Both the position numbers and the translations under genes were made by a program. A stretch of 64,000 nt of DNA from an uncultured Fretibacterium sp. (GTDB lineage Bacteria; Synergistota; Synergistia; Synergistales; Aminobacteriaceae), in assembly GCA_946186205.1 (NCBI GenBank), contig CAMHMH010000002.1:496001-560000 (forward strand), in the 5' to 3' direction. The notes below the pieces were generated by a model. That model was not told where the DNA came from. It made no database searches and saw nothing but the letters and a program-made list of their open reading frames with translations. Positions within the stretch are counted from its first letter, which is position 1; the number at the start of each line of letters is the position of its first letter. Below are positions 4,188 to 14,846 of this stretch, piece by piece.

Positions 4188-6251
4188 TTAAATTCTTCCC
4201 TGCAAAATCTTTTCACTGACTTCTGCCGGGGTCTGCTCGTAATGATCAAATTCCATTGAGTAATTCGCACGGCCTGAAGTCTTGCTCCTCAAGTCCGTTG
4301 CGTAACCGAACATTCCTACAAGCGGGACAAAGGCTTTCACCTCGCGGGCATTGGCTTTCATTTCCATTCCGTCAATACGTCCGCGCCTCGATGACAAATC
4401 GCCGATTACGTCCCCTAAGTATTCTTCCGGCGTTGTTACTTCAACTTTCATCACCGGCTCCATCAATACGGGATCAGCCTTCTTCATGGCCTCTTTGAAT
4501 CCCATTGAAGCGGCAATCTTGAACGCCATTTCCGAGCTGTCTACTTCGTGATAACTTCCGTCAACAAGAGCGACTTTCACGCCGATAACGGGATAACCTC
4601 CGAGAACGCCCGACTGTATAGCTTCTTCGAGTCCTTTTTCGACAGCGGCAATAAATTCTTTCGGAATCGCTCCGCCTACTATCTTGTCTTCAAACTCGAA
4701 CTTTCCGCCTTCAATCGGTTCAATCTCAAACACTACATGACCGTACTGGCCTCTTCCGCCTGACTGACGTATATACTTGCCTTCAGCGCGCGCGGGTTTC
4801 CTTATTGCCTCGCGGTATGAGACCTGCGGATTTCCGACTTTCACATCAACGCCAAACTCACGCTTGAGTCTGTCAACAATAATTTCAAGGTGCAATTCGC
4901 CCATTCCTGATATTACCGTCTGGCCGCTTTCCTCGTCATTATGGACTCTGAATGTAGGATCCTCATCCGCAAGAGCGTTGAGTCCTTTCGACAATTTCAC
5001 TTTGTCCTGCTGAGTCGCGGGTTCAACTGCCAGCGATATAACCGGCTCAGGAAATTCCAGACTCTCAAGCACAACGGGTTTTGACTCGTCGCAAAGCGTA
5101 TCGCCTGTCCTTGTGGCTTTGAGTGATGGCACTGCTACAATCATTCCGGCTTCCATTGAGTCGATGTCCTCGCGCTTGTTTGAGTGCATTCTCATTATGC
5201 GCCCGATTCGCTCTTTCTGCCTTGACGTAGGATTGTACAACGCCCCGCCCTTGTCCATTTTCCCCGAATAAACGCGGAGGAAATATATTTTTCCCAAGAA
5301 CGGATCTACAGCCACTTTGAACGCTAACGCCGAAAACGGTTCGTCCGCACTGCTGTGTCTTTCTACTATCGTTTCCGGGTCTGAAGGCAAAAATCCTTTC
5401 ACCGCTGGAAGGTCAATCGGACTCGGCAGATACTCAACAACCGCGTCAAGTAAAGGCTCCACGCACTTGTTCTTGAAAGCTGAACCGCATAATACCGGGA
5501 CTGCCTTCAAATTTATTACGGCCTCGCGCATTGTCTTGCGGATTAATTCCGGGCTTACGGGTTTTCCCTCAAGATAGAGCATCATTATGTCATCGCTGAA
5601 ATCCGAAAGGGACTCCACTATCTTGTCTCTTCCTTCTTTGGCCGCCATCGCCAGCTCCGGGGGGATTGTTCCCTCTCTGGGAGGCTGTCCCAAAACACCG
5701 GGGAAGTAATACGCTTTCTGCTCTATCAGATCTACTACGCCCTGAAAATCATCTTCCGCGCCTATCGGTAACTGTATCGGGATTGCGTTTGCCCCTAACT
5801 TTTCGCGCATGGCCTTCACGACTGACGGGAAATCAGCTCCGATTCTGTCCATCTTGTTGACGAATGCCACTCTCGGAACGTCGTATTTATCCGCCTGCCG
5901 CCATACTGTCTCGGACTGAGGCTCTACCCCTCCTACCGCACAGAAGACCGCTACAACTCCGTCAAGTACGCGCAATGAACGCTCTACTTCTGCTGTAAAA
6001 TCCACGTGGCCTGGCGTATCAATCAAGTTGATAGTATGACCCTTCCACGCACATGTAGTAGCCGCTGAGGTGATCGTTATTCCCCTCTCGCGCTCTTGTT
6101 CCATCCAGTCCATTGTCGCATTGCCTTCATGAACTTCTCCGACCTTGTAATTACTCCCCGTGTAATAGAGGATTCTTTCACTGGTCGTTGTCTTTCCGGC
6201 ATCGATATGGGCTGCTATACCTATGTTTCTTACCTTGCTAATGTCCTGCAA
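4188..6251 (-). CDS. fusA: Elongation factor G
   Basis: This 687-residue EF-G is the translocation GTPase. It has AHIDAGKTT (G1), RGITI (G2), DTPGH (G3) and NKMD (G4), then domains II-V. Domain IV contains YREAIRKPA and the tip region typical of translocating EF-G. Length and order (rpsG-fusA-tuf) point to the main translocation factor and not an EF-G2 paralogue. It is separated from tuf by 22 bases and from rpsG by 34. Confidence 0.98.
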
Positions 6252-6285
6252 AAATTAACACCTGCACAAATAGATTTTATCCAGA

Positions 6286-6756
6286 CTACCAGCGGTAATG
6301 TGCAAATGCCCGGTTCGCTTCCGCCATCCTGTGTGTGTCGTCGCGGCGTTTGATTGAAGCTCCTTCGTTCTTGTAGGCATCCATCAACTCACGCATGAGT
6401 CTTTCACTCATAGGCATTCCCTTTTTGGCACGGGCATATGACACTATCCACCGAATCGAAAGCTGCACTCCGCGCTCCGGCGTAACTTCTACAGGAACTT
6501 GATACGTTGCTCCACCTACACGGCGGGGACGTACTTCAATGTTCGGTGTTACGTTTGCCATTGCCTTCTCAAACACTTCAAAGGGTTCAACGCCTAACTT
6601 TTCCGCAGCTGACTCTAACGCGCCGTAAAATATCTTCTCGGCTGTGCTGCGTTTTCCTCCCATCATCAATGCGCTTATGAATCTTCCCGCAGCCGCGTTG
6701 TTAAATCTCACATCGGGCTGAGGCTCGCGCTTCTTGATATGTCCTTTTCTCGGCAT
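6286..6756 (-). CDS. rpsG: 30S ribosomal protein S7
   Basis: This 156-residue S7 nucleates assembly of the 30S head. It starts MPRKGHIKKREPQPD and contains VRPRRVGGATYQVPVEV, the conserved rRNA-binding segment, and ends FAHYRW. It lies 16 bases after rpsL. In E. coli S7 represses the str operon at the rpsL-rpsG junction. Here that junction is too short for the long E. coli hairpin, so any feedback would work differently. Confidence 0.98.
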   Translation of the reverse strand: MPRKGHIKKREPQPDVRFNNAAAGRFISALMMGGKRSTAEKIFYGALESAAEKLGVEPFEVFEKAMANVTPNIEVRPRRVGGATYQVPVEVTPERGVQLSIRWIVSYARAKKGMPMSERLMRELMDAYKNEGASIKRRDDTHRMAEANRAFAHYRW

Positions 6757-8037: not shown

Positions 8038-8238
8038 TTGCTGTTACGATTCGGGGCTGTCAGTGCAAAATTAATTCATCATCACTTCAGGGAGGCGGTC
8101 AAAATCACACAAACACTTGCGCAAATGGGCAGGGCATTAAGTTTTATGCCTACGGAAGAAAGGATTTCATTCAATTTTCATCCCTCAAAAATTTATGTAT
8201 ATCTTATATGGGAAGAAATGACAAGGAGGTTTAGCAGC

Positions 8239-11200
8239 ATGAATAAACGTATTACAGGTCTTGCGCTTGTTTTGGTACTGCTCTTTGCGTTCAGCGCGTG
8301 GGCAGCGCCTACTTTGCGTATCAACACGAGCAGGATTCCTGATGTCAAGAAGGGAGAAACAATTGATTTTGAGCTTGACTATGTCGCAGAGGACTTCGAG
8401 GACGATGCCGTTACGTGGTCAGTCAGTCCTGCAGATGCTCAGGAGGGCATATCGTTCAACACAGATGATGTCAAGTTCACAGGCACTCCCACGAAACTCG
8501 GAAACTTCAGGTTCACCGTTACGGCTACAGGAAAGTACCCGGTGCCGGGCAGCTCAAAGACAACAGACGATGGAGCAGTCAGCATTGACAGGACAATCAC
8601 GGTCACTAAAGCCTACACGATAGCCGTTCTCCCTTGGGGGCCGTCGGACTTTGAGGCAGTATCGGAAGATCTTGACGATGTTTTAGCTGTAACAGGACTC
8701 CTTAAGGACTCTGAGACTGCACCAGATCTGAGCGCGATAGAGTTCAACACAAAGGCGACGACTCCGCTTACGGCATGGGCAGTAAGAGGACTTCCTCCCG
8801 GAATCACGGCAAAAATTGATGGCAACGAAGAGGCTACAGATGGTTCAAGCGATGTCAAAATTACGCTTACAGGAACGCCCACAAAAGCCGGTATCTACAA
8901 CTCAATCTTTGTAACAGCGTCCAACAAAGGCGGAAGCGTTTCTTCAGGGCCGTACACTCTCAGGGTATTTGAGAAGGCAGCCGTTACGACAAAGAAGCTG
9001 CCCGATATGACCTGGGGCAAACCGTACAGCGCAACCGTAACAGCAACAGGAGGTCTTACGGGCTACAAGGTGAGCTGGGATGCTGCTACTACAGATCTTG
9101 AAGCTGCAGGATTAAGCGGGATTTCATTTGACGCTGAGACAGGAAAACTTTTCGGCACAACTGCTTCAACGGACAAAGCCAACGACACACTTAAATTCGA
9201 GACGAACAAAACAAAAGAAGTAACGCTCAAATTCAAGGCAAAATCCCCTCACGGTGAGGACGGAGATTCAGACGAAGCAGAGTTTACTTTGAAAGTCTTA
9301 GCTGTAGCACCCAAGATTCTCTCGAAGGACGAAAAGCAGGGTGATTTTGACGGTCTCGGACTTTCACTTACCAGCGAGGACGGGACAATTACGACAACAA
9401 AAGACGGAGATCTTGAGCTGAAATACACCTTTGACGGACCCGGCACAGTAACATGGACAACATCGACACTTCCGACGGGCTTCACTTCAGCTGAAACTGA
9501 CGGCGTATTGACGATTACTATCGCGAAGGATACTGTAGCTCAGACGCTGAAGAAATATCCTCTCACAGTAACGGCGAAAAACGCGGTCGGCTCTGACACG
9601 TCAACAATATACCTCAACCTTGACGCGCCCGATGTCGCTATAACCGCCACAAGAGCAGGTATTCTCAGCGCAAAGATGAGCGATGACAATGTTACTATTT
9701 TGTCGGGCAGTTTGTTTGTGGTTGGTGACTCAGTTGATGCGACTGACAGGACTCCAGCAACAGGCAGCGCACTTCCTAGGGGCGTTGTGAGAACGAAAGC
9801 ACTGAAAGCTAAAAAGGCACCCTCAAACAGGGGAGAGGGAGAATCTACAGGCAAACTTGAGCTTACAGCATTCCCCGGGCCTATAGCGTGGTCAGTCAGC
9901 AACCTTCCGAAAGGCATCAAACTTTCAATCGACAAATCAGTGAGCTTTGACACGAAAGCATATCTTGTAGGAAGCCTTACAGGTGAGACGAAAAAGAATC
10001 ATACTTTCACCGTAACAGCAACTAACAAGGTCTACAAAATGAGCGACACTATACAGGGAATGATCACCGTATACGGCAAGCCTACGATAAAGACGAAAAC
10101 ACTTCCTCCGCTCACACTCGGCAAAGCATACAGCGCAAGGATTGATTACTCAGGTCTTGATGCCTCAATTGACGTTTCATTTGCAGCCTCAACGGACGCA
10201 CCTGCTACAGGTTCAGCACTTCCGGCAAGAAGAGGGGATTACGGCGCATCGTCAGAATTCAGCGCGAATAATGGAGTTGCGAAACTGACATTTGACCCTA
10301 AGACGAGGATGATCACAGGAAGCCTCGACAGATTCCCGGCAACACCTAAGATACCTACGAGCGTGGACAAGAAGAATCCTTACACTGCAAAAGTCATCGT
10401 AACAGTGAAGGCCACCAACCCCGGCTACGGCCTCGGAACTGATACGATAAAAGATGCTGCCTCACAGGATATTGTCATCATGGTAAAGGGAGTCGCGCCC
10501 AAGTTCATGACAAAGAAGCTCATTGACTTTGCGGCATTCGGCGATAATGTTGACGCTGACGGATCGAAGCACACGATTTACATCACGGGTTCAAAGCCCA
10601 TGAGTTTCCGTGCTTACATCGCAGGAACGGACGCTGAGAAGTTCGGTCTCGGTTCATCAGATATTCCGATAACTGTAGCTGAGAAGACCGCTCTTCCTGC
10701 AGCCAAGAAAGACGATGCAGCTGCAGCACCTGTATTTACGATCACGAAGGAATATCCCGATGTCAACACAACAAAACTTAACGTTGCGTATGCTGAAGGT
10801 CAGAATTTCTCGCTGACAGGGCTTCCTATCACGATAAGTGCAGACAACGGAGCAAGCGCGCCCGTAATAAACATCTTCAAGGTAAACATTACAGGATACA
10901 CGCCTGTTATCGTTTCTAGCGACGGCACAACTGAGATCTCAAAGGACATCACAGTGAACGTCGCAGCAGGAAGCGAAATGCCTGAACTTGTCCTTAAAGC
11001 CAGCGGAGATTTGCCGCTTGAGTTCCAGTATTCAGGAGCAAAGAACGGCATCGAAGTGGAAGAGGGGACGGATGACACAACAAAGAAGCCAACTCTGACA
11101 ATTAAGGGAACACCCAAAGACGGCAAGGAGACAAAGACAACAATAAGCGTTACGCTCGTCAACCCGGTAACAAAGAAGAAGTACACCCGCAAGGTAATCA

Positions 11201-12834
11201 TTACGGGAATGCTTAAGCCTACCATCACGAGCAAAGGCAAAGCACTCATCAAAGAAGTAGACATAGGCAAGGCAGTCAGCTTCAAACTTGCGGCGAAGGG
11301 TTCAAAGCCTATAACGTGGTCAGTTGACAAGCCCGCTGAAATCGTAGCATTAGGTCTTTCACTCGACGAGAAAACCGGCGTTATCAAGGGCACTGCAAGG
11401 AACGTAACATCAAAAGACGGCGTAGAGTATGGGACATTATCGTTCAAGTTCATAGCAAGCAACGATGCCGGCACGAATGAAGTTGATGCTGAGTTAGGCG
11501 TGAAGGGCAAGAAACCGAAGCTCGCAACAAAGACGATTGAGATTGAGAGAACTTATGATGACTCAGGAAAGATTGTTGCTTCAGGCGACACGATTATGAA
11601 GACGGATATTCTGCCTACAGACATGACCGCAAATGTTCAGTGGTCGCAGGCTGCCGGAAGCTCTCTGCCCGCGCGTCTCAGCGGAATCACTATCGGCAAC
11701 TCGTCAACACGCAGCTACGGATCGTTTGACCTTTCAGGATTCACAGGCGGCGCAACAAAGGGAGCAACAGTGAGAGTTACGGCGGACAATTTCGGAAATG
11801 CTGTAACAGGCAACGTGAAAGTAGTCGTGAAAGACCCGGCACCGTCCTTTGATGTCAGCGAGGAAGAAGAAGTTAAGCTTAAGTCCAACAAAACTTCAGG
11901 CCAAAGCAAAAATGTTTCATTCACAATGAAGAATGACGTTGTAACGGGCGACTCCAACATCACATGGAAGATAACGGGAAGACCCGCGACACCTGTAACC
12001 GCTGTTCTCGGAGCATCAAGCAAGGCAGGCGCAACGGTGAAAGTTACCGTAGCAAAGGGAGTATCAAGCAAGGACGTTCCCGCGTCAAGGCGTGAGGAAT
12101 GGAGCAACCACTTCAAGACCTCATTCGCCATATCTGCAACCAACACTTTGACGAAGGCCGTAACAATAATGCGAGTCTCCGTTGACGTAACGCCGCATGA
12201 CGTTTCAGCACTTCCAGCCGAGAAGGACGCACTGCCCGAAAATGAAGAGCTTTCAGAGAATGAAGCCACAGAGGAGACACTCTCAGCTGATGAGCTTCCT
12301 GCTGGTGAAGGCACTGTAACTTACGGAGAAGCACGCGGAGAGTCAACGCTCACTGAGGCCGAACGCAAAGCAATCTCAGACAGCGGATATATCATTGCTG
12401 CAATACTTCCTGAGATCACAGCAGATGAGTCCGGGCAGTATGACCTTGACGCGGTATCACTCGACACGGCAGCCCCTGAAGGCTACGAGCTTGTGTGGTT
12501 CGCATTCCCTCGCAACGTTGAAAGCTCCGACGATGATGCAATCGCTGAGTTCTACGACGAGGCCGGCGCGGAAGTGTTCGCAGTCCCAGAGGCAAGAAAG
12601 GTTGTTCCGTCCCCGTGGCTTGAGAAGGAAGTAATCTACGCACCTGTTATAGCGGTCAAAGCTCCGTCAACGACAGACGCAAAGACTTCATTCGATCAGG
12701 CTCAAGAGGGCGACACAGTAACAGTTCAGGCCATCGAGGAAGCGACGCAGAACAGCGCGCAAGAGTCAGCAGAAACTTCAGCAGAGGCCGAAAAGGTTTC
12801 AGAGGAAGCAAAGCACGAGGAAGCAGCAGAGTAA
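8239..12834 (+). CDS. Giant secreted protein with tandem putative Ig-like domains
   Basis: This 1,531-residue protein starts at the ATG at 8239, eight bases after AAGGAGGT. It begins with a signal peptide (MNKRITGLALVLVLLFAFSAWA). Most of the chain is a string of beta-rich modules of roughly 90-110 residues with He_PIG/putative-Ig features, such as LPPGIT, LSLDEKTGVIKGTA and repeated FTVTATN. Short insertions with SALP recur near residues 505, 655 and 1140. The C-terminal 150 residues are very acidic (Glu/Ala/Ser-rich), and there is no LPXTG or visible membrane anchor. It is probably an exported surface or matrix protein. A TTG at 8038 with its own AGGAGG is in frame and would add 67 residues before the signal peptide. 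I consider that start unlikely but cannot exclude it. Confidence 0.85.
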   Translation: MNKRITGLALVLVLLFAFSAWAAPTLRINTSRIPDVKKGETIDFELDYVAEDFEDDAVTWSVSPADAQEGISFNTDDVKFTGTPTKLGNFRFTVTATGKYPVPGSSKTTDDGAVSIDRTITVTKAYTIAVLPWGPSDFEAVSEDLDDVLAVTGLLKDSETAPDLSAIEFNTKATTPLTAWAVRGLPPGITAKIDGNEEATDGSSDVKITLTGTPTKAGIYNSIFVTASNKGGSVSSGPYTLRVFEKAAVTTKKLPDMTWGKPYSATVTATGGLTGYKVSWDAATTDLEAAGLSGISFDAETGKLFGTTASTDKANDTLKFETNKTKEVTLKFKAKSPHGEDGDSDEAEFTLKVLAVAPKILSKDEKQGDFDGLGLSLTSEDGTITTTKDGDLELKYTFDGPGTVTWTTSTLPTGFTSAETDGVLTITIAKDTVAQTLKKYPLTVTAKNAVGSDTSTIYLNLDAPDVAITATRAGILSAKMSDDNVTILSGSLFVVGDSVDATDRTPATGSALPRGVVRTKALKAKKAPSNRGEGESTGKLELTAFPGPIAWSVSNLPKGIKLSIDKSVSFDTKAYLVGSLTGETKKNHTFTVTATNKVYKMSDTIQGMITVYGKPTIKTKTLPPLTLGKAYSARIDYSGLDASIDVSFAASTDAPATGSALPARRGDYGASSEFSANNGVAKLTFDPKTRMITGSLDRFPATPKIPTSVDKKNPYTAKVIVTVKATNPGYGLGTDTIKDAASQDIVIMVKGVAPKFMTKKLIDFAAFGDNVDADGSKHTIYITGSKPMSFRAYIAGTDAEKFGLGSSDIPITVAEKTALPAAKKDDAAAAPVFTITKEYPDVNTTKLNVAYAEGQNFSLTGLPITISADNGASAPVINIFKVNITGYTPVIVSSDGTTEISKDITVNVAAGSEMPELVLKASGDLPLEFQYSGAKNGIEVEEGTDDTTKKPTLTIKGTPKDGKETKTTISVTLVNPVTKKKYTRKVIITGMLKPTITSKGKALIKEVDIGKAVSFKLAAKGSKPITWSVDKPAEIVALGLSLDEKTGVIKGTARNVTSKDGVEYGTLSFKFIASNDAGTNEVDAELGVKGKKPKLATKTIEIERTYDDSGKIVASGDTIMKTDILPTDMTANVQWSQAAGSSLPARLSGITIGNSSTRSYGSFDLSGFTGGATKGATVRVTADNFGNAVTGNVKVVVKDPAPSFDVSEEEEVKLKSNKTSGQSKNVSFTMKNDVVTGDSNITWKITGRPATPVTAVLGASSKAGATVKVTVAKGVSSKDVPASRREEWSNHFKTSFAISATNTLTKAVTIMRVSVDVTPHDVSALPAEKDALPENEELSENEATEETLSADELPAGEGTVTYGEARGESTLTEAERKAISDSGYIIAAILPEITADESGQYDLDAVSLDTAAPEGYELVWFAFPRNVESSDDDAIAEFYDEAGAEVFAVPEARKVVPSPWLEKEVIYAPVIAVKAPSTTDAKTSFDQAQEGDTVTVQAIEEATQNSAQESAETSAEAEKVSEEAKHEEAAE

Positions 12835-12874
12835 CAAAGCAGCAATCCTCAAAACGAATCGCAAGTAACAAAAG

Positions 12875-12909
12875 CACCCTGTCGGAACAAAGGCAGGGTG
12901 TTTTCTTTT
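12875..12909 (+). terminator. Intrinsic terminator after the Ig-like gene
   Basis: CACCCTG (12875-12881) pairs perfectly with CAGGGTG (12894-12900) across a 12-base loop and is followed by TTTTCTTTT. Confidence 0.85.
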
Positions 12910-12911
12910 GG

Positions 12912-12940
12912 TTGACAATTTTTTAGCATTGTGTAATTAT
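12912..12940 (+). promoter_or_regulatory. Promoter of the aromatic leader / aroB-like unit
   Basis: TTGACA (12912-12917) lies 17 bases before AATTAT (12935-12940). Transcription would start near 12947, about 35 bases before the leader peptide. It comes directly after the previous gene's terminator, so the leader and the aroB-like gene form an independent unit. Confidence 0.7.
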
Positions 12941-12981
12941 TCTAACGCTTTCAAAAATTTAAGAGGAGTTAATTTATCTCA

Positions 12982-13074
12982 GTGAACAGAATCAATCTTG
13001 CATCAGCAAATTACTTCATGAGCTTTTACTTCTGGTACTTTTATCAGAGGCTTATATTCATTTGGCTGACGTAA
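12982..13074 (+). CDS. Aromatic leader peptide (30 residues)
   Basis: A short frame opens at GTG 12982 and ends at TAA 13072-13074, preceded by GAGGAG (12963-12968). Eleven of its 30 residues are aromatic, and residues 15-21 read FYFWYFY, seven aromatic residues in a row covering Phe, Tyr and Trp. An in-frame stop at 12970 closes the frame upstream. This is the classic form of a regulatory leader peptide whose translation speed reports charged aromatic tRNAs. It lies 100 bases before an aroB-family gene and ends just upstream of a strong terminator. The 13-base spacing between SD and GTG is long. The peptide itself need have no function. Confidence 0.85.
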   Translation: MNRINLASANYFMSFYFWYFYQRLIFIWLT

Positions 13075-13150
13075 GGACATTCACACTATAACGATATGGA
13101 TACAGCACCTTCTGAATCAGTCAAATGATTTCGGGAGGTGTTTTTTTTTT
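13003..13150 (+). promoter_or_regulatory. Transcription attenuator controlled by the aromatic leader peptide
   Basis: Three competing helices can be read directly. Segment 1 (13003-13011) pairs with segment 2 (13060-13069), giving 9 bp with one bulged G. Segment 2 (13058-13069) pairs with segment 3 (13117-13128), giving 12 bp with one G-U, the antiterminator. Segment 3 (13106-13118) pairs with segment 4 (13127-13140) as the terminator. Segment 2 overlaps the last codons of the leader. A ribosome that reaches the stop codon covers it and lets the terminator form. A ribosome stalled on the aromatic run (13024-13044) leaves it free to form the antiterminator. Confidence 0.85.
13106..13150 (+). 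terminator. Attenuator terminator
   Basis: CACCTTCTGAATC (13106-13118) pairs with GATTTCGGGAGGTG (13127-13140), 13 bp with one bulged T and two G-U pairs. The loop is eight bases and ten T residues follow (13141-13150). It stands between the leader peptide and the aroB-like gene, so it must be read through for that gene to be expressed. Confidence 0.9.
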
Positions 13151-13173
13151 GCAGGAAGGACTGAAATGAAAAC

Positions 13174-14235
13174 ATGCCCGCGAATGTAAAAGTTAATGAC
13201 GGTTACAGCATAAGAATACGCAGGGGAGCGATTGAGAATCTCGGTGTCGAAATATTAAGGATCGCAGAAGGTTCATACACGGAGATATTAATCGTTACAG
13301 ACGAAAAAGTGTCGGGGCTTTATCTCTCAAAAGTGATAATGAATTTTCAGGAATGCCCGAAGCCTGACGGAATGAAGATACGAGTCTGCGAGCTGATAAT
13401 AGACTCACATGAAGGCGCAAAGAATTTCAGCACAGTCTCAAAGCTCCTCGATGACATGGCCGAGTTAGGACTCTCCGAGAAGTGCATAGTTGCGGCGATA
13501 GGCGGCGGTGTTGTGTGCGAGGCTGTCGGATTCGCGGCGGGCTGCTACATGGGGGGCGTGCGACTCGTTCTTGTACCTACGACACTTGCGGGAATGATTG
13601 AGGCTTCAGCGTGGCGCAGCGCATTCTTGAATCTCAGCAGCGGTAAAAATCTTGCGGGTATGTCGTGCCGTCCTTCCCTCGTTGTTTGTGATACTAATTG
13701 CTTGTCGACTCTCCCAAACGAGGAATACAGGTCGGGAATTGCTGAGGCTCTCAAGACTGCGATAATGTCGGGCGAGGAATTGTTCAAGATATTCGAGCGC
13801 GGAGATGTAATGAGCAATACGGAGAAGATAATAGAAGGCTGCATAAAATACCGGGCTGGATTGAGTCCCGAAATGCGCAACAAGTGTCTCGGCTATGCTT
13901 TGGGGAATGCCATCGAGACTCTGAGCGGCTATGAAGTTCAGCACGGGCTCGCACTCTCTCAGGGTATAGGGATAACGGCCAGGGCTTCAGTAAAACATGA
14001 ATGGTGCGGCAAAGAAACGTCAGAAAGAATCCTCAGCGCGCTTGAAAGAAACAATCTTCCTTCAGAATGCAGGAGGTTCACTGCGCGTGAAATATCCCAG
14101 GCGTTAATCAACGGCCGTAAAATTTCGGGGAATGGCTTTGAGCTCGTAGTGCTGTCTGAAATCGGACGCTGTGAAGTGAAAAGTGTGAATGAGAATGAGC
14201 TTGAAGAAATAATATCATCGGGCATGGAAGAATAG
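13174..14235 (+). CDS. Divergent 3-dehydroquinate synthase-family protein
   Basis: This 353-residue protein aligns along its length with AroB, the second enzyme of the shikimate pathway. The NAD-site motif GGGVV, VPTTL, SGKN and IAEALK are kept. However, the GDxxGF Asp is changed (VCEAVGF). The segment usually read DSSVGGKT is EASAWRSA, losing the catalytic Lys. The DERE..R stretch is missing, and GHTxGHAIE has become GYALGNAIE, losing a zinc-ligand His. The later His (QHGLAL) remains. It may be a repurposed or inactive sugar-phosphate cyclase relative. Placement behind an aromatic attenuator argues that it still matters to aromatic metabolism. AGGAAGGA (13153-13160) lies 13 bases before the ATG. 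A seven-codon frame, ATG 13166, overlaps the start. Confidence 0.8.
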   Translation: MPANVKVNDGYSIRIRRGAIENLGVEILRIAEGSYTEILIVTDEKVSGLYLSKVIMNFQECPKPDGMKIRVCELIIDSHEGAKNFSTVSKLLDDMAELGLSEKCIVAAIGGGVVCEAVGFAAGCYMGGVRLVLVPTTLAGMIEASAWRSAFLNLSSGKNLAGMSCRPSLVVCDTNCLSTLPNEEYRSGIAEALKTAIMSGEELFKIFERGDVMSNTEKIIEGCIKYRAGLSPEMRNKCLGYALGNAIETLSGYEVQHGLALSQGIGITARASVKHEWCGKETSERILSALERNNLPSECRRFTAREISQALINGRKISGNGFELVVLSEIGRCEVKSVNENELEEIISSGMEE

Positions 14236-14318
14236 CGCATTTTGTCGGGGCATGAGTTCAGGAAATGTAATATAATACTTGCATTCAAGCAATAACTTTT
14301 CAGGAGGTGCCATTAAGA

Positions 14319-14846
14319 ATGGACATTCGTTTTGTGCAGCGCGGGTGCGAAATTGATGACAGGCTCAGGGATTACATGGAGAAGAAAATATCCAAGCTCG
14401 AAAAATTCTTCAGGCGTATCATGAACTGTCAGATAGTAGTAACGCACCACAAGGGCAGCTTCAACGTTGAGACTACAGCCAACGCAAACGGTGTAATTCT
14501 CAGGGCAGAAGAGGACGCATTAGAACCCCGCAAGGCATTTGACCAGTCATTGAAGAACCTTGAGCGGAGGATCAAGAAGTACAACTCATATCTCAAGGAC
14601 AGGGCGCAGCTTGGAGCGGGCGAGGAATTTACGTTCAGCGTAGACGAGGCAGAAGACTCAAACGCGCCGGCAATCGACAAGGTGAAGAAGATAGAAGTTC
14701 ACCCGATGGAAGCGGCAGAAGCGGTAATGCAGATGGAGCTTGTCGGGCATGAGTTCTTTGTGTTCCAGAACGCAGCGTCAGGAGAAATCAACGTAGTCTA
14801 CAAGCGCGGGGAAAACAGCTACGGACTCATTGAACCCGTAAGATAA
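14319..14846 (+). CDS. hpf: Ribosome hibernation promoting factor, long form
   Basis: This 175-residue long-form HPF/YfiA protein inactivates 70S ribosomes by dimerisation in stationary phase. The N-terminal domain (about 1-100) has MDIRFVQRGCEIDDRLRDYM and the basic helix SLKNLERRIKKY. The C-terminal dimerisation domain (about 118-175) has HPMEAAEAVMQMELVGHEFFVF and ends YGLIEPVR. The ATG at 14319 is nine bases after AGGAGGTG. The upstream GTG at 14307 lies inside that SD and is rejected. A TATAAT box at 14271-14276 may be its promoter. Confidence 0.93.
   Translation: MDIRFVQRGCEIDDRLRDYMEKKISKLEKFFRRIMNCQIVVTHHKGSFNVETTANANGVILRAEEDALEPRKAFDQSLKNLERRIKKYNSYLKDRAQLGAGEEFTFSVDEAEDSNAPAIDKVKKIEVHPMEAAEAVMQMELVGHEFFVFQNAASGEINVVYKRGENSYGLIEPVR

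Follow-up and report, generated by a model that had tools for sequence, protein, structure and literature searches.

The window, the whole 64,000-nt stretch of DNA analysed here, belongs to a gut bacterium whose genome is 99.7% complete. On its + strand, a promoter-like site (12912-12940) was read in the sequence as TTGACA, 17 nt and AATTAT with TG upstream, and a TTGACA N16-17 TGTAATTATT arrangement also lies 5' of the leader in most relatives. It is followed on the same strand by a Shine-Dalgarno-like AGGAG (12964-12968), of which GGAG is repeated in relatives, a leader peptide ORF (12982-13074), an intrinsic terminator hairpin with ten T (13105-13150), the AroB-derived gene that would be controlled (353 aa, 13174-14235), a -10-like conserved element (14266-14276), and hpf (14307-14846), the gene for the long form of the ribosome hibernation-promoting factor, which was identified by Pfam and NCBIfam and is a possible read-through target. 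Upstream, positions 8038-12834 encode a 1598-aa Ig-repeat-like protein, present but fast-diverging in relatives, with a terminator-like hairpin after its gene (12871-12904). Rfam gives a single match in the window, to a tRNA away from this site; a T-box or known riboswitch identity for the attenuator, which has no Rfam match, was ruled out, as was a viral or mobile origin, as viral contigs yielded no relatives.

The leader ORF starts with GTG, 13 nt after AGGAG (a rather long gap), encodes VNRINLASANYFMSFYFWYFYQRLIFIWLT and ends at a TAA stop (13072-13074). As the original prediction had it, the 30 codons include seven consecutive aromatic ones, Phe-Tyr-Phe-Trp-Tyr-Phe-Tyr (13024-13044), read directly from the DNA. 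No other run of at least five F/Y/W codons occurs in the window, whichever frame is read. In 100 first-order Markov-simulated 64-kb sequences, runs of at least five occurred at a mean of 0.42 and a run of seven was never seen.

Three arms make up the competing structures. Arm 1 (13003-13011, TCAGCAAAT), the pause or anti-antiterminator arm, pairs with arm 2 (13058-13069, TCATTTGGCTGA), the 5' arm of the antiterminator, while arm 3 (13117-13128, TCAGTCAAATGA), the antiterminator's 3' arm, supplies the loop and upper part of the hairpin of the terminator. The predicted 12-bp antiterminator between arms 2 and 3 was found, with one G-U pair and a duplex energy of -16.2 kcal/mol. The proposed pause helix (13003-13011 with 13060-13069) was found as well, with a lower stability of about -8 kcal/mol. 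The terminator had been described as a 13-bp stem with ten T; the T run stands (13141-13150), but the stem has 15 pairs with one bulged T, and the fold of 13105-13140 reaches -18.9 kcal/mol. Arm 2 does lie over the last leader codons, as claimed, covering codons 26-30; 13 nt separate the last control codon from the start of arm 2, and 2 nt separate its end from the leader stop. A second pairing, between CAGAGG in the leader and CCTTCTG in the terminator, was examined by eye and rejected, as it is not conserved among relatives.

With the transcript extended to 13128 and a ribosome on the Trp codon, the predicted fold is the antiterminator. Once the terminator 3' arm has been transcribed, the balance tips slightly to the terminator (-24.2 versus -20.2 for the antiterminator). 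Because the complete terminator is the more stable structure, the order of co-transcriptional events matters, as in other attenuators. The bases between arm 3 and the terminator 3' arm are too few to span a helix of 10-12 bp, so the two helices should be unable to coexist.

A protein search covered 61 related genomes and located the gene behind the terminator in most of those from the host's genus, which are rumen and gut Synergistaceae near Fretibacterium. These relatives are mostly metagenome-assembled genomes, in which single absences may be gaps, and patterns across many genomes carry the conclusions. In 25 of 25 same-genus loci where the AroB-like gene is present and the DNA upstream of it is readable, a homologous leader occupies the same position. 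The leader consensus is approximately (V)NxINLTSAxYFxFxFxFWYxFQRxxxLWLT, with F-x-F-x-(F/R)-W-Y conserved in the leaders of the 25 loci. Across 24 distinct leaders, the Trp codon is invariant and the Phe and Tyr positions are preserved via synonymous TTT/TTC and TAT/TAC changes. A covariance model of the element matched 32 genus genomes (31 besides the host), one copy each, and gave no match outside the genus in a 121-genome set. Several genus members lack both the leader and the AroB-like gene. Against the reading as an attenuator stand the window leader's GTG start, 13 nt after AGGAG, and two genomes, G032 and G018, in which the end of the leader is unusual and the antiterminator weak.

In the alignment of relatives, 93% of antiterminator cells are paired and 4 of 10 pairs have changed on both sides; for the terminator, the figures are 99% of cells and double changes at 5 of 12 pairs. 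As a control, sliding the columns by one to three lowered pairing to about half or less. An own-versus-cross duplex test, in which the arms were set by alignment rather than by complementarity and the linker served as control, gave p = 0.00005 for both arm 2:arm 3 and arm 1:arm 2 across 29 sequences (linker, p = 0.68): arms of the same genome pair better than arms taken from different genomes. Restricted to the 24 AroB-like sequences, arm 1:arm 2 gave p = 0.004, weaker than the other two helices. Covarying arms include TTCGGCTG with CAGTCGAA in G017, GTTTGCTGA with TCAGCAAAAC in G027 and TTCGACTG with CAGTCGAA in G036. The original prediction was to fall if relatives kept neither the aromatic codon run nor the competing helices; both are retained, with compensatory changes. 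The features by which an attenuator is recognised are found together here: a leader ORF with a ribosome-binding site and clustered control codons, a U-run terminator before the first gene, a covarying competing antiterminator, an arm 1:arm 2 helix, and control codons 5' of arm 2 with the stop adjoining. The leader, the terminator and the compensatory changes in both main helices strongly support a ribosome-controlled attenuator. Outside the three helices, many relatives conserve the motif AATACACGGAGAAC in the linker (13080-13104 in the window), where the window itself does not carry it.

The gene behind the terminator had been assigned to the AroB family. By sequence and fold this is correct, but its score, its residues and the absence of the pathway indicate that it does not function as aroB. 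The protein matches Pfam DHQ_synthase, and its predicted structure (pLDDT 87) is a DHQS fold with a TM-score of about 0.85 to solved DHQS. Against the aroB equivalog model TIGR01357 it scores 191.4 bits, where the cut-off is 305 and the Fretibacterium AroB reaches 339.5. All 8 canonical proteins compared have the equivalents of Asp146, Lys152, Arg264, Asn268, His271 and His275, whereas all 11 AroB-like proteins have lost them, the substitutions being D146E/K, K152S/H/N, R264M/V/L/I, N268C/K, H271Y/C and H275N/S; the equivalents of Glu194, Lys197 and His287 are retained. The residue numbers are those of the Aspergillus enzyme, in which Glu194, His271 and His287 are zinc ligands.

The AroB-like proteins form one clade (support 100/100, stem 0.89) within the Synergistaceae AroB group, and dN/dS of the gene is 0.06-0.14 in comparisons of species whose dS is near 1 or higher. 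Residue loss, purifying selection and a long-stem clade together are what one would expect of a protein that has taken on a new job and retained it. Judged from its sequence, the AroB-like protein is a catalytically dead, repurposed pseudoenzyme under strong purifying selection. In two genomes (G007 and G020; loci L023 and L025) it is only 236 aa long, comprising the N-terminal domain, with leader and hpf still there, and two of the genomes examined have an in-frame stop in the gene. The protein is therefore not indispensable everywhere. Its regulator and its neighbour suggest that the new role is probably something useful during aromatic starvation.

Family searches of the host genome found no chorismate synthase (aroC), no prephenate dehydratase (PDT), no DAHP synthase and no EPSP synthase. 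The lone DAHP-synthase-family (PF00793) gene is KdsA and the lone EPSP-family (PF00275) gene is MurA, and a functional shikimate pathway in the host was ruled out by these searches. Among the 37 genus genomes searched, aroC occurs in just G019, G021 and G036. The host carries trpD-trpC-trpF-trpB-trpA (L154:6394-10757, on G000:C4), beside which no trpE or trpG was seen. With neither of these beside trpD and no chorismate synthase, Trp looks as if it were made from imported anthranilate. A trp leader was sought before these genes as well, and no convincing candidate was seen. The host also has two copies of a shikimate-dehydrogenase-like gene, each beside a TRAP transporter. They lie in a duplicated block with apparently identical proteins (L155:4012-12238 and L156:2637-10863, on G000:C2 and C10), which contains the shikimate-dehydrogenase-like, sugar-isomerase-like and HMG-CoA-lyase-like genes, the TRAP transporter and a helicase pair.

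The two weakest genus matches of the covariance model, in G021 and G036, lie directly 5' of tyrA-aroA-aroC-pheA-aroK. In Fretibacterium, F. fastidiosum included, a homologous leader with the same arms precedes aroF-tyrA-aroB-aroA-aroC and further genes; at one such locus (L043) the leader is MRSLNLTAAYFSNYFRFTYYWGKANFCLAGPGKD. A model built with the Fretibacterium elements matched a further operon of this kind in G078, outside the training set. The attenuators of the Fretibacterium operon (L043, L044, L045, L171) and of the tyrA-aroA-aroC-pheA-aroK operon (L139, L140) share with the window a homologous leader start, LNL-T-A-YF, and arms TTTGGCTG / CAGCCAAA, or covarying versions, at the same place in the terminator loop. 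They precede intact biosynthetic operons, whereas the window's attenuator precedes a predicted pseudoenzyme. The L043 element comes after gyrB, and the window too has gyrB close by (19367); G019 keeps the order tyrA-aroB-aroA-aroC. Since homologous attenuators stand before real aro operons in relatives that make aromatics, the window's element is, on this homology, an orphaned aro-operon attenuator retained after pathway loss. In the simplest history, a Phe/Tyr/Trp attenuator once controlled the common pathway as a whole; this lineage then lost the pathway and retained the attenuator and a much altered aroB. A Fretibacterium-like aromatic leader was also seen at L172:1603-1769, in G179, a genome with 7% contamination that belongs to another family; the contig is short, shows no aro gene and is possibly a stray.

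How the switch would operate can be laid out from the coordinates and the established trp-type mechanism, from which the ribosome geometry is inferred. With charged tRNA-Phe, tRNA-Tyr and tRNA-Trp plentiful, the ribosome would reach the leader stop and cover arm 2, and the terminator (13105-13150) would form. With any of the three tRNAs short, the ribosome would stall on 13024-13044 with arm 1 masked and arm 2 free; a ribosome stalled over or just past arm 1 would leave arm 2 free or nearly so. Free arm 2 would then pair with arm 3, and transcription would continue into the AroB-like gene and possibly hpf.

The reading we favour, with a probability of roughly 0.8, is a ribosome-mediated Phe/Tyr/Trp-tRNA attenuator, descended from that of an aro operon, that now stands before a dead AroB-derived protein kept by selection. 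The observed anatomy, covariation, operon homology, pathway loss, loss of catalytic residues and purifying selection form its basis, and from them we infer the switching, the tRNA signal and the protein's new role. The attenuator most likely induces the repurposed AroB pseudoenzyme when Phe, Tyr or Trp tRNAs are uncharged.

The strongest competitor, though we consider it doubtful, is a module linking starvation to hibernation, in which selection keeps the attenuator mainly for hpf, read-through on uncharged aromatic tRNAs would raise the hibernation factor, and the intervening AroB-like gene is either a partner or a remnant. It draws on the arrangement of the genes: in 29 of the 30 genomes with the leader, hpf comes directly after the AroB-like gene, across a gap of about 24-71 nt (about 300-330 nt in two cases) with no terminator between, and beyond hpf the gene varies among genomes. 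None of the canonical aroB genes in the genomes compared has an adjacent hpf, which occurs in other contexts in aroC-bearing or leader-less genomes, and the truncated AroB-like forms coexist with a persisting leader and hpf. On the other side, hpf has a promoter-like TGTAATATAAT / TGNTATAAT element of its own, found in varied form in nearly all genomes read and also where the AroB-like gene is absent. The exception to the gene order, G013, keeps the leader and the AroB-like gene with no hpf behind them, in none of the genomes does hpf come immediately after the leader, and strong purifying selection acts on the AroB-like gene itself. Given hpf's own conserved promoter-like element, read-through may couple the attenuator to ribosome hibernation, and we rate this as possible only. 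At two loci (L002 and L008) an insertion of about 250 nt separates the -10-like element from hpf. These insertions have similar motifs, resemble the stretch before the host trpD (L154, about 5990-6300) and look like a short interspersed mobile element.

A second alternative, that attenuator and AroB-like gene are drifting leftovers of a dying system without present use, is improbable. The pathway is gone, both elements are lost in some genomes, and a few truncations and in-frame stops occur, as such decay would have it. However, a dN/dS of about 0.1 between species already at dS near or above 1, and covarying helices preserved over deep divergence, need selection and so disfavour a relic.

Slightly less probable still is sensing by an arrest peptide, in which a nascent W-Y-x-F-Q-R peptide would bind a free aromatic compound and stall the ribosome in the manner of TnaC, with no part for tRNA charging. 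Conservation of W-Y and Q-R outside the helical arms is in keeping with it. Yet the leaders differ in how many aromatic codons they have (7-13) and in the order of these, several leaders lack Gln-Arg, and the Fretibacterium leaders are aromatic-rich without W-Y-x-F-Q-R; the pattern is therefore one of codon counting rather than of an arrest motif. Least probable is an ordinary aroB making dehydroquinate for aromatic synthesis under a standard biosynthetic feedback attenuator: the family match and fold, the remaining Lys197 and zinc ligands (Glu194, His287) and the presence of trpDCFBA would suit it, but the four missing enzymes, the six lost active-site residues, the sub-threshold score and a trpDCFBA that would require imported anthranilate all stand against it.

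On the favoured reading of an orphaned attenuator before a selected pseudoenzyme, the locus departs from the expectation that a regulator disappears along with its pathway, as an amino-acid attenuator would have outlived its operon. Selection appears to keep it throughout a genus of aromatic auxotrophs, with a neofunctionalised pseudoenzyme as its target; this is a clean case of regulatory exaptation in which the ancestral state survives in sister species. The locus also allows a direct test of starvation sensing by an attenuator on behalf of a function other than biosynthesis, which might be ribosome hibernation. More tentatively, the attenuator may have been re-used as a general starvation sensor, through which uncharged Phe, Tyr or Trp tRNA induces the AroB-derived non-enzyme and hpf together; if true, an amino-acid attenuator would directly drive a ribosome-protection response.

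Ribosome-mediated attenuation of the common aromatic pathway is now documented in Synergistota. An earlier report of it there was not found in the open-access literature, and the Synergistetes regulation literature that was found concerns HisR repressors (PMC9413887). The AroB-like protein shares with 3-dehydroquinate synthase AroB the fold and the equivalents of Glu194, Lys197 and His287, and differs in the lost equivalents of Asp146, Lys152, Arg264, Asn268, His271 and His275 and in having no pathway around it. E. coli trpL and pheL (cited in PMC11802643) share with the window a control-codon leader, an antiterminator competing with a terminator, and a stop near the antiterminator arm. Each of the two responds to one amino acid; in the window, unlike in trpL and pheL, arm 3 is mainly the terminator loop and top rather than the whole 5' arm.

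The original prediction knew of no described attenuator of this form before aroB. That novelty holds only in part, as an aromatic attenuator before an aro gene is known: Corynebacterium glutamicum has a ribosome-mediated one, aroR, with Phe-Tyr-Phe, before aroF (PMC4046766; PMC11802643, citing Neshat et al. 2014). Both aroR-aroF and the window place an aromatic-codon leader before an aro gene, and in aroR-aroF ribosome stalling raises transcription. According to the same papers, aroR-aroF regulates a functional DAHP synthase in response to Phe, whereas the window has seven codons covering Phe, Tyr and Trp and, as its apparent target, an AroB pseudoenzyme in a pathway-less host. In the open-access literature, where absence is a weak argument with subscription journals mostly outside it, such aromatic attenuators were found only before working biosynthetic genes. 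Compared with these systems, the window's element is unusual as an aro-operon attenuator that survived the loss of its pathway.
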